Positions 14,959 through 18,935 of a stretch of 64,000 nucleotides of DNA are shown here, piece after piece. The stretch lies in assembly GCF_003051005.1 (NCBI RefSeq), contig NZ_QAOW01000001.1:1178001-1242000 (forward strand), given 5' to 3'. Under the pieces are notes generated by a model, which saw only the letters and a program-made list of their open reading frames with translations, searched no databases and was not told where the DNA came from. Source of the stretch: Rhodococcus sp. OK519. Its GTDB lineage: Bacteria; Actinomycetota; Actinomycetes; Mycobacteriales; Mycobacteriaceae. The position numbers were made by a program, and so were the translations under genes. Each line of letters begins with the position of its first letter. Positions within the stretch are counted from its first letter, which is position 1.

Positions 14959-15077
14959 CGATTCCACCTCCGGTGGCTGCACACGCGCTCGAATCCCGCC
15001 TACCCATTCTCCGCTGTTCCCACACGGTGGGTGCCCGATTGGATTACGGGTGGAGTTCGGGCGTAACCTGGCCCGCT

Positions 15078-15146
15078 GTGAACGCCCTGCTGACCTGTCG
15101 CCGCTACGTCGACAACTGTCTGCAGGCGAGCGCGGTCTGTCGCTGA
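15078..15146 (+). CDS. Cysteine-codon leader peptide, 22 residues
   Basis: A GTG-started ORF of 22 codons with Cys at positions 7, 14 and 21, all encoded by TGT although the genome strongly prefers C-ending codons. It contains the pieces LLTCRRYVDNC and ASAVCR, which resemble the RRHVD/VASAxCR leader peptides upstream of sulfur-assimilation and cysteine genes in actinobacteria. A TAACCT -10 element (15064-15069) eight bases upstream suggests a leaderless transcript starting at the GTG. Ribosome stalling at the Cys codons when cysteine is scarce would plausibly expose the downstream symporter start; this mechanism is known for cysteine leader ORFs of mycobacteria and is inferred here. Confidence 0.75.
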   Translation: MNALLTCRRYVDNCLQASAVCR

Positions 15147-15267
15147 CACCCGGTCGATCTCCCCGAGTCCCGGTACGGCTCCTTCTTCCGAGCCTCCGCG
15201 CGCCCTCTTCGGTCGCGCACGTGTCGTCGTGCGCCGCCGTCTCCACATCTCCACTCGAAAGGCCCTG
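15147..15267 (+). promoter_or_regulatory. Candidate attenuator between leader peptide and symporter
   Basis: This leader RNA segment holds two visible hairpins, GGCTC/GAGCC (15177-15194) and GCGCAC/GTGCGC (15215-15234), followed by CGAAAGG (15255-15261) as ribosome site for the symporter. The layout suits translational or transcriptional attenuation coupled to the leader ORF. The competing structures have not been computed. Confidence 0.5.
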
Positions 15268-16650
15268 ATGTCGGCCCCCACCCTCGACGCGCCCCGGCGC
15301 GCACTGCCCAAGTGGGCAACCTCGTTCGGCCCGCAGATCGTCGCCGGTCTGATCCTCGGCGTCGTGATCGGCCTCATCGCCCGCGCCATGCCCGACGCCG
15401 CCGACGGCAACGAGAACTGGCTCGTCGGCACTGTCAAGACGCTCGGCTCGAGTTATGTCGCGCTGCTGACCGTCGCCGTGATCCCGCTGATCTTCACGGC
15501 GATCGTGAGTTCCATCGCGAATCTGCGCAACGTCGCGAACGCCGCCCGACTCGCGGTCCAGACGTTGCTGTGGTTCGCGATCACCGCGTTCATTGCGGTG
15601 CTGGTCGGCATCGTCGTCGGCCTGATCACCCAGCCCGGATCCAACACGACCGTCGACGCCGACGCGGCGTCCGCGCCCAAGAGCGGCGGCTCGTGGTGGG
15701 CGTTCCTCACCGGACTGGTGCCGCAGAACTTCCTCGGACTGGGCGCGAAGACGAGCGTCACCGGTGACGCCGCCTCCGGCTTCTCGGCTACGACGTCGCT
15801 GAGCTTCAACGTCCTGCAGTTGCTCGTCGTCGCGATCGCGATCGGCATCGCCGCCCTCAAGGTGGGCGAGAAGGCCGAACCGTTCCTGAACTTCAACGCC
15901 GCGCTGCTCGCGATCGTGCAGAAGGTGCTGTGGTGGATCATCCGCCTCGCCCCGATCGGCACCGCGGCCCTGATCGCCAAGGCCGTCGCGACGTACGGCT
16001 GGGATGCGATCGGCCAGCTGGGCGTGTTCACCATCGCCGTCTACATCGGTCTGGCGATCGTGTTCTTCGTCGTGTACCCGATCATCATTCGCGTGCACGG
16101 GCTGTCGGTGAAGAACTTCTACTCCGGCGTGTGGCCCGCCACCCAGCTGGGCTTCGTCTCGCGTTCCTCGATCGGCACGCTGCCGCTCACCGAGCGCGTC
16201 ACCGAACGCAACCTGGGTGTGCCGCGCGAGTACGCGTCGTTCGCGGTGCCGCTGGGCGCCACCACCAAGATGGACGGCTGCGCGGCGGTCTACCCGGCGA
16301 TCGCGGCCATCTTCGTGGCCCAGTTCTACGGCATCGACCTGAGCGTCACCGACTACCTGCTCATCGTCGTGGTGTCGGTGATCGGTTCGGCCGCCACCGC
16401 CGGAACCACCGGCGCCACGGTGATGCTCACGCTCACGCTGTCGACGCTGGGGCTGCCGCTGGCCGGTGTCGGTCTGCTGCTCGCAGTCGAGCCGATCGTC
16501 GACATGGGCCGCACCGCGCTCAACGTCACGGGCCAGGCGCTGGTCCCGACGATCGTCGCAAAGCGGGAGGGCATCCTCGACGAGAAGCTGTACAACGCTC
16601 CGCGTCAGGGTGACCCGTTCGCCGACGAATCCCTCGAACCGACTCGCTGA
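15268..16650 (+). CDS. Dicarboxylate/amino acid:cation symporter, possibly L-cystine (TcyP-like)
   Basis: 460 residues, DAACS family. Typical blocks are KTLGSSYVALLTVAVIPLIFTAI, the HP1 Ser-rich motif LGFVSRSSIGTLPLTER, VPLGATTKMDGCAAVYPAIAAIF (transmembrane 7 NMDG-type region, here KMDGC), and MGRTALNVTGQALVPTIVAK (substrate-binding Asn/Asp helix). Members take up C4-dicarboxylates, glutamate or cystine with Na+ or H+. The upstream Cys-codon leader ORF argues for a sulfur amino acid, so TcyP-like cystine uptake is the favoured inference. ATG 15268 was chosen for its ribosome site. Only six bases separate its stop from the convergent ArsB-like gene. Confidence 0.87.
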   Translation: MSAPTLDAPRRALPKWATSFGPQIVAGLILGVVIGLIARAMPDAADGNENWLVGTVKTLGSSYVALLTVAVIPLIFTAIVSSIANLRNVANAARLAVQTLLWFAITAFIAVLVGIVVGLITQPGSNTTVDADAASAPKSGGSWWAFLTGLVPQNFLGLGAKTSVTGDAASGFSATTSLSFNVLQLLVVAIAIGIAALKVGEKAEPFLNFNAALLAIVQKVLWWIIRLAPIGTAALIAKAVATYGWDAIGQLGVFTIAVYIGLAIVFFVVYPIIIRVHGLSVKNFYSGVWPATQLGFVSRSSIGTLPLTERVTERNLGVPREYASFAVPLGATTKMDGCAAVYPAIAAIFVAQFYGIDLSVTDYLLIVVVSVIGSAATAGTTGATVMLTLTLSTLGLPLAGVGLLLAVEPIVDMGRTALNVTGQALVPTIVAKREGILDEKLYNAPRQGDPFADESLEPTR

Positions 16651-16656
16651 GCCGGC

Positions 16657-17907
16657 TCACAGGACCAGCCACAGCACGGTCGTCGCCGCGACGACCGTCA
16701 GGGGAGTGGTTGCCAGCCCGAGCTTGGTGAACGTGCCGAGCTCGGGCCGGCACCCGCCGGCGGTCGCGACGCGGCGCCACAGCATGGTCGCGAGCGATCC
16801 GACATAGGTGAGGTTGGGGCCGAGGTTGACCCCGATCAGTAGCGCCAGGACCAGCCCGGTCGGCGCACCCGCCCCGAGGACGGCGAGCAACAGCAGTGTC
16901 GCGGGGAGGTTGTTGAGGAGATTGGCTGCGACGGCCGCGATCACCGCGACCGTGAGCATGCCCGCGAGGCTCGCCTGCTCGGGCAGCAGACCGCCGAGCC
17001 AGTCGCCGATCGGTCCCGCCGCGACCCCGGCGACCACGACACCGAGCGCGAGCACGAACGCGCAGAACCAGAGGTCGGCCGCGAACAGCATCCGGCGGGG
17101 CGTCGTGTGGCCGCCCCGTAGCGCGGGGACCGCGAGCGCCAGTGCGCCCGCCGCGGCCACCCATCCGGGCGCGACGCCGACGAGGCCGCCGATCGTGAAT
17201 CCGACCAGCGTCGCCGCCAGCACCGACAGCGCTGCGATCGGGACGGGCGGCGGAACGTCGGACGACACCCGGGGCACCTCGATTGCCTCCGAGACGTCCG
17301 GCGGAGCCAGGTCGCGGCGGAAGATGATTCGGAACACCATCCACTCGAGCGCGATCGTCACCACCCACGGCAGCGCCATCACCGCGGTGAAGTGAACGAA
17401 CGTCAGACCGGTCGCGGAGAACGCGATCAGATTCGTCAGGTTCGACACCGGTAGCAGCGTCGACGCCGAATTCGACAGGTGCGCGGTGGCATACGCGTGC
17501 GGCCGGACCGGCATCCGCAGCGTGCGGGCGGCCCGGATCACGACGGGCGTCAGCAACACGACGGTGGCGTCGAGGCTCAGCACGGCGGTCGTCACGGACG
17601 CGATCGCGAACACCAGCGTGAGCAGGCGAACAGGCCCGCGGGTGCCGTCCCGCGTCAGGATGCCGGCCACCCACGTGAACACGCCCGACGCGTCCGCCAG
17701 GTGCGCGAGGACCAGGATCGCCGCGAGGAACCCGACTGTGGGAGCGAGCGCGGTGACCTCCGACCACGCTTGCTGCGGGGTCACGACGCCGATCGCCACG
17801 GCCACGAGCGCGGCCGGTCCGGCGACCACGATCTCCGGAAGCCCGCGCGGGCGGGCGATCGCGAAGACCAGCACCGCGGCCACCAGCAGGATCGCCGCGA
17901 CGCTCAC
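16657..17907 (-). CDS. ArsB/SLC13-like membrane permease
   Basis: 416 residues with about ten to twelve helices. Blocks such as VSNLTNLIAFSATGLTF, LLNNLPATLLLLAVLGAG and GVNLGPNLTYVGSLATMLW are those of the ArsB/CitM ion-transporter superfamily, including the paired Asn/Pro hairpins. ArsB exports arsenite; relatives handle citrate, sulfate, Na+/H+ or silicon. No arsenic operon genes (arsR, arsC) lie beside it, so arsenite is unproven. GTG start, overlapping the DUF1697 stop by four bases, so the two genes are probably co-transcribed. Confidence 0.82.
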   Translation of the reverse strand: MSVAAILLVAAVLVFAIARPRGLPEIVVAGPAALVAVAIGVVTPQQAWSEVTALAPTVGFLAAILVLAHLADASGVFTWVAGILTRDGTRGPVRLLTLVFAIASVTTAVLSLDATVVLLTPVVIRAARTLRMPVRPHAYATAHLSNSASTLLPVSNLTNLIAFSATGLTFVHFTAVMALPWVVTIALEWMVFRIIFRRDLAPPDVSEAIEVPRVSSDVPPPVPIAALSVLAATLVGFTIGGLVGVAPGWVAAAGALALAVPALRGGHTTPRRMLFAADLWFCAFVLALGVVVAGVAAGPIGDWLGGLLPEQASLAGMLTVAVIAAVAANLLNNLPATLLLLAVLGAGAPTGLVLALLIGVNLGPNLTYVGSLATMLWRRVATAGGCRPELGTFTKLGLATTPLTVVAATTVLWLVL

Positions 17908-18502: not shown

Positions 18503-18935
18503 GCGGACGAGTTGGCTGGGCGGCCGCGGCTGCGGGAACCGACACCCTCGAGGTGCCAGGCCCGGGGCCGAGGAAAGTCCGGACTCCACAGAGCAGGGCG
18601 GTTGCTAACGGCAACCCGAGGTGACTCGCGGGACAGTGCCACAGAAAACAGACCGCCGGCGCTCAGGCGTCGGTGAGGGTGAAAAGGTGCGGTAAGAGCG
18701 CACCAGCGCCCCGGGTGACCGGGGCGGCTAGGTAAACCCCGCCCGGAGCAAGGTCGAAGGCCGCACCGGTGTCCTCCGGGACAGCGTGTGCGGCTGCGCA
18801 GGTGTTCGAGGGCTGCTCGCCCGAGCCTGCGGGTGGACTGCTCGAGGTACCCGGCAACGGTGTGCCCAGATGGATGGTCGCCACCCGGTGCGTGAGCGCC
18901 GGGGACAGGATCCGGCTTACACGCCAACTCGTCCG
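18503..18935 (+). ncRNA. rnpB: RNase P RNA, bacterial class A
   Basis: The 5' segment CGGACGAGTTGGC pairs with 3' GCCAACTCGTCCG to form the P1 helix. Conserved cores are GAGGAAAGTCCGGACTCC near the 5' end, CAGAAAACAGACCGCC after P4-region sequence, GGTAAGAGCGCACC, GGTAAACCCC and, near the 3' end, GACAGGATCCGGCTTAC. RNase P trims tRNA 5' leaders. A TAGTCT -10 (18490-18495) lies seven bases upstream. About 433 bases, usual for high-GC actinobacteria. The exact ends are set by P1 pairing. Confidence 0.97.

Follow-up and report, generated by a model that had tools for sequence, protein, structure and literature searches.

Results

The leader ORF and its surroundings

In the window, the whole 64,000-nucleotide stretch of Rhodococcus sp. 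OK519 DNA that was analyzed, a short ORF precedes the gene of an SDF-family symporter (Table 1). The earlier note had described a 22-codon ORF with cysteines at codons 7, 14, and 21, all written as TGT, and a TAACCT element 8 nt upstream; coordinates and sequence confirmed this description. The TTGGAT hexamer sits 19 nt upstream of TAACCT, and a TA...T-like element stays at the same distance from the leader start in the genus alignment. A strict sigma-70 scan of the leader region returned no promoter. Because TAACCT ends so close to the GTG, the transcript is probably leaderless. In the leader family described below, 68/121 leaders have TANNNT 4–10 nt ahead of the start codon, with a spacing of exactly 7 nt in 53; a control position shifted by 45 nt gave 12/121.

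Table 1. Features of the leader–symporter locus (window coordinates)
Feature	Position	Strand	Details
Putative promoter, TTGGAT + TAACCT	15039..15069	+	TTGGAT 15039-15044, TAACCT 15064-15069; 8 nt before GTG
Leader ORF, VNALLTCRRYVDNCLQASAVCR	15078..15146	+	GTG start 15078-15080, 22 codons, stop TGA 15144-15146
Universal Cys21 codon TGT, then C	15138..15140	+	family codon counts
C-rich, G-poor untranslated spacer	15147..15256	+	two local hairpins, 15177-15194 and 15210-15239; folding, base composition
Symporter ribosome-binding site, GAAAGG	15257..15262	+	sequence; invariant in 12-genome alignment
SDF (PF00375) symporter, own subfamily, some TcyP-like residues	15268..16650	+	Pfam, tree, alignment

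The leader stop is separated from the symporter ATG at 15268 by 121 nt. Two hairpins followed by the symporter ribosome site had been proposed for this interval. Both hairpins fold and GAAAGG is present, but the post-leader stretch was no more stable than shuffled sequences (z = –0.80 and –1.23). The first hairpin is deleted in genus member L008. The symporter start codon lies inside a short inverted repeat (GGCC, start codon, GGCC; 15261-15276), which is kept in the 12-genome alignment. The Rfam scan of the window yielded RNase P RNA and one tRNA only; the RNase P RNA is of bacterial class A and lies at 18508-18935 (256.6 bits). An ORF for an ArsB/CitMHS-type transporter (16657-17907, minus strand) is convergent with the symporter.

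Across 48 window genes, called roughly, TGT accounted for 21/142 Cys codons. At this usage, the chance of TGT at three of three Cys codons is ~0.003; the chance of three Cys in 21 codons is ~0.0007. Both figures are weak alone, since a single ORF was picked by eye.

Conservation and linkage to the symporter

PF00375 matches at E 0.001 were obtained in 39 of the 61 genomes searched. All 14 genus genomes carry an ortholog of the symporter with an identity of at least 88%, and the leader lies ahead of it in 14/14. The leader peptide is kept across the genus while the flanks diverge. Outside the genus, the same sample contained a leader of the same type at 7 of 9 further orthologs (L015–L023) and at 0 of 7 other SDF loci (L024–L030). 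L018 and L020 are the symporter orthologs with no recognizable leader.

From 582 confirmed loci, the 80 best named ones were kept, and 23 of these had the motif, including 15/15 from Rhodococcus/Prescottella. Controls on these 80 loci gave 0/80 for the reversed strand and 0/400 for shuffles. The motif was not found at the remaining 57, many of them Micrococcales and one with too little upstream sequence; the symporter can thus live without the leader. A class-wide sample, comprising 40 high-scoring and 20 low-scoring SDF places hand-chosen from a listing and hence non-random, showed the motif upstream of 24 of the 40 symporter orthologs (25 with a weaker pattern) and of 0/20 other SDF symporters. 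This conserved linkage supports a tie between the leader and the symporter. Conservation of the peptide in all 14 genus genomes, together with the motif at the 15 Rhodococcus/Prescottella loci among these 80, establishes the leader ORF as real.

Twelve Arthrobacter-type orthologs (L090, L091, L096–L098, L101, L103, L109, L111, L114, L123, and L127) have no leader motif. Common to them, in the 300 nt ahead of the symporter, are other blocks (GGAATAA and GTAAYATTTCTCAA-like). The symporter GTG in these loci looks near a possible promoter, and control may be different there.

The leader family and its sulfur context

The window leader fits the core L-T/V-x-R-R/L-x-V-D-x8-C. It scored 14.6 bits (E 0.02) against NCBIfam NF042933 (Ms5788A), below the cut-off of 45, and NF042934 and NF042936 did not report it at E up to 10. 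Our own family model A3, which contains a genus sibling, found it at E 9e-10. Judged by this core and these profiles, the window leader is a divergent relative of the catalogued actinobacterial leaders. The cut-off of NF042934, named 'putative leader peptide', is 27 bits and was reached by 7 of 10 other family leaders scanned; the other three scored 25.1, 25.8, and 17.7 bits. As NCBIfam models take leaders of this family, this kind of leader is already known. A broader leader profile hit 126/148 class genomes (E 0.01). A sample of 119 genomes from the phylum contained 9 with a match at E 0.001, 8 of them within the class, and the lone match outside it was weak (7.2e-5).

Pfam domains were assigned to 60 ORFs downstream of family leaders, picked by coding score and including some wrong frames. 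We found DUF4395 in 11, sulfite reductase domains in 10, rhodanese in 8, NMT1 in 5, SBP_bac_5 in 4, PALP, ThiS, and FMN_red in 3 each, Flavin_Reduct in 2, and one each of sulfatase, luciferase, and SDF. The earlier note had stressed that the leader sits on a transporter. That linkage is conserved, but a transporter as target is not exceptional, since family leaders elsewhere also lie ahead of genes for solute binding and ABC transport.

Polycysteine leaderless short ORFs of mycobacteria were reportedly described by Canestrari in 2020. The Ms5788A type and these polycysteine ORFs share with the window leader a probable leaderless start, the LTxRRxVD core, the Cys register, and probably the sulfur context. 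The window leader differs by having no Cys run, with its three Cys spread over 15 codons, and by its target, an SDF symporter. The resemblance to actinobacterial cysteine-responsive leaders noticed earlier holds at the levels of the family motif, the leaderless-type –10 spacing, and the conserved symporter linkage. Leaderless ORFs with contiguous cysteines are reported as cysteine-responsive attenuators (Canestrari 2020, via PMC9031893 and PMC13236596).

The family profile gave seven places in the own genome at E 0.01. One of them (G000:C9:171342) was rejected as a leader, having no Cys at the expected place, and the accepted set leaves out G000:C1:1132280. Four further leaders were accepted, before OsmC, SCO4226-like, luciferase-like monooxygenase, and DUF4395 genes; the first three were found with a profile of ten symporter leaders. 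These targets form a candidate cysteine regulon. The four leaders lie outside the window (L067, L068/L260, L069, and L049). By reading only, the SCO4226-like gene is followed by acyl-CoA-dehydrogenase-like and ABC-ATPase-like ORFs. The leader before DUF4395 is a polycysteine copy of the Ms5788A type, which the genus has as a separate leader; in the own genome it is ELMLTRRRAVDLCRLGGCCCPCC and scores 41.1 bits, just below the cut-off of 45. Again by reading, the ORF after this copy is rhodanese-like in several relatives within the genus. Searched at E up to 1, Ms5788A had matches in 6/14 control genomes as well, none above the cut-off.

The leader motif offers a sequence-based way to search for cysteine-regulated genes in the class, and an SDF symporter subfamily is likely to be under cysteine control in many members of that class.

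Symporter identity and substrate

The symporter has 460 residues, exceeds the PF00375 cut-off of 27.9 with 345.6 bits, and is the only PF00375 match in its own genome. Its clade is distinct from TcyP, GltP, and DctA in the tree, where the window symporter clade and TcyP form two separate 100/99 groups and the root is not fixed. Orthology with TcyP found no support in the tree, in which SstT has a very long branch that may pull TcyP. Sequence identity was 31.8% to TcyP (E. coli b1729) and 30.1% to GltP.

Near the presumed substrate site, the symporter and TcyP have SRSS, a one-residue GCA insertion, YPA, and [E/D]P..DM.RTA (EP.IDMGRTA) in common. These shared residues and the leader association speak for cystine. 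It is possible, although we hold it to be the less probable case, that the symporter imports something else, namely a C4-dicarboxylate, an acidic amino acid, or another sulfur compound, and that the leader links it to sulfur supply. Such a substrate would agree with the separate clade, with the 11 alignment columns shared exclusively with the GltP/DctA rows compared with 8 for the TcyP rows (counted at slightly different thresholds), and with the best solved-structure match, which is named an aspartate transporter. The TcyP-like residues listed above and the leader association stand against it. The leader would place the symporter in a cysteine/sulfur regulon, and it speaks more strongly for cystine, or for a different source of cysteine, than the symporter sequence does. 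Cystine is the likely substrate on this prediction.

Ensifer plasmids carry a symporter ~65% identical to that of the window (L308), perhaps by horizontal transfer.

Codon usage at the universal cysteine

Of 123 leaders, 121 write the last Cys as TGT. Broken down by set, TGT was found at the universal Cys in 58/60 chosen class hits, 30/30 best class hits, 30/30 Ms5788A-type leaders, and 3/3 other own-genome leaders; at the other Cys codons of the same sets, the counts were 6/54, 3/28, 35/114, and 0/2, respectively. The 60 class places were hand-chosen and non-random, whereas the 30 further class loci and the 30 Ms5788A-type loci were the best of their searches. Common descent links the rows, and P values on these counts therefore overstate independence. 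Residues R0, D4, and C13 were partly built into the extraction pattern, which all 123 profile hits contained; the codon count is unaffected by it, because the leader searches worked at the protein level. Among unique nucleotide cores, TGT occupied the universal Cys in 155/157. The third base was G or C in 2/157 at this codon and in 64–100% at the other codons. In 43 downstream ORFs, TGT made up 8 of 136 Cys codons. The base after the universal TGT was C in 103/113 leaders, against a background of 35/136 after Cys codons.

UGU at the last Cys in nearly every leader examined, mostly followed by C, is a new observation. The open-access papers that matched on UGU, including PMC8632094, do not describe this leader family in their accessible text. 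UGU-C at one fixed place is a codon-level rule, and an attenuation model that considers the amino acid only does not predict it.

One tRNA-Cys presumably reads both Cys codons. We infer that UGU before C may be a slowly decoded sensor codon. A role of TGT at codon 21 in RNA pairing or protein binding, with no part in decoding, seems less likely to us, although the constraint does reach the nucleotide level: the next base is C in the 103/113 leaders even though the amino acid after the Cys is variable (R, P, H, Q, L). TGACA, the complement of TGTC, occurred 4–30 nt downstream in 8/113 leaders as compared with 2.7 expected, whereas GACA at the same distance showed no excess (10/113 versus 9.6). 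At 90–200 nt, GACA was rarer than expected (21/113 versus 33.0, sd 2.7, in dinucleotide shuffles of L243–L302). With U changed to C in silico, the mean shift in ensemble energy was small, –0.02 to –0.27 kcal/mol. A downstream pairing partner for UGUC was rejected, as TGACA nearby was alone in excess and GACA was not. GACAC at 90–200 nt after UGU is depleted further, with 4 occurrences against 16.5 expected.

Spacing of the cysteines

In the aligned family, Cys7 is replaced by Ser or others and Cys14 by Arg or others, and Cys21 is kept in every row. Most other Rhodococcus loci retain the last Cys alone, as in VNPLLTSRRYVDLRLQASATC. Since only Cys21 is kept across the family, the exact spacing of seven codons is particular to this genus; with Ser and Arg at Cys7 and Cys14 in most other Rhodococcus loci, it finds no support as the working feature. 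A plain multi-codon attenuator, implied by the earlier note, in which the TGT codons 7, 14, and 21 are equal cysteine sensors and the remaining peptide is filler, is improbable for similar reasons. Three TGT codons in 14/14 genus genomes, against 21/142 in window genes, would fit it. Set against this are the single Cys at most other Rhodococcus loci and between positions –3 and 13 in 51 of 133 unique peptide cores, and the higher information carried by L, T/V, R1, V/I, and R7 than by the Cys14 position. A chance ORF in conserved non-coding DNA can practically be dismissed: the leader DNA itself is strongly conserved inside the genus, but synonymous third positions vary across the family (G/C 64–100% per codon) while the residues hold, and the reversed strand and shuffles yield no motif.

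Proposed expression control

Cysteine control of the symporter is predicted with good support from these results. We consider it quite likely that the ORF is a cysteine-responsive leader, in which a pause, above all at UGU 21, raises expression of a symporter that takes up cystine or a different source of cysteine. The leader would be translated from an mRNA that is probably leaderless. Under a shortage of charged tRNA-Cys, the ribosome would pause on the leader, chiefly at the UGU of codon 21, and the pause would lead to higher symporter expression, either by keeping Rho off the C-rich spacer or by freeing the ribosome site. The symporter would then bring in cystine or another cysteine source. 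The pause, its sign, its link to expression, and the substrate are all steps that we infer.

The RNA after the leaders is rich in C: over 97 nt, C outnumbered G in 94% of 90 leaders, and for the 123 stretches upstream of leaders the figure was 41%. Ahead of 20 other SDF genes, C is in excess as well, but less so (0.363 versus 0.299). The composition would fit Rho loading. The intrinsic terminator scan of the leader region found none. For the symporter ribosome site, the RNA was refolded for a ribosome at each Cys codon, excluding the part that the ribosome covers or has already passed; the site was found in 16 of 20 folded sequences (missing in L014, L017, L019, and L022). With the ribosome at Cys21, no consistent opening was seen. 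In the window, the unpaired value of the site was 0.62 free, 0.60 with the ribosome at Cys21, and 0.62 at the stop, and in L002 and L010 the site even closed with the ribosome at Cys21. Sequestration of the ribosome site was rejected, as no ribosome position at a Cys codon had a consistent effect. Given neither a consistent opening nor an intrinsic terminator, no expression platform is demonstrated. Pairing of codons 18–20 (GCGCGG) with a downstream CCGYGC, present in the window fold, was likewise rejected; it is broken without compensation in L011 and L013 (alignment by reading).

Comparison with known systems

Conserved residues upstream of the universal Cys were counted in the 133 unique cores. 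L–3 was present in 132, T/V at –2 in 130, V/I at 3 in 130, and R7 in 117. With UGU in the A site, the distances from R0, D4, and R7 to the residue in the P site are 12, 8, and 5. In PMC8429421, TnaC has the same spacing of 0, 4, 7, and 12, formed by W12, D16, I19, and P24, where the leader has R0, D4, R7, and the residue before UGU. TnaC is also a short ORF with a possible Rho loading region after it, and its stall is described there as blocking Rho. It differs in the residues at 0 and 7, in having a stop codon rather than a sense codon in the A site, and in its ligand. The likeness is an analogy and implies no homology.

The UGU rule, combined with conserved upstream residues at TnaC-like distances, suggests by this analogy that the leader stall may be nascent-chain-assisted and codon-specific. 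A broader version is put forward tentatively, as something we regard as possible but not probable: a cysteine-gated arrest peptide throughout the Actinomycetes, in which the chain (L, T/V, R0, V-D4, R7) and UGU-C would together read charged tRNA-Cys and the stalled ribosome would block Rho. If this is true, a single codon does the work of the codon runs in other attenuators, and the codon itself, beyond the amino acid, is part of the sensor.

The uORFC-8-2 leader of cysS in Rhodobacterales, as presented in PMC8632094, also has Cys codons in a uORF. It differs in its tandem Cys with UGC dominant, its intrinsic terminator, and its phylum.
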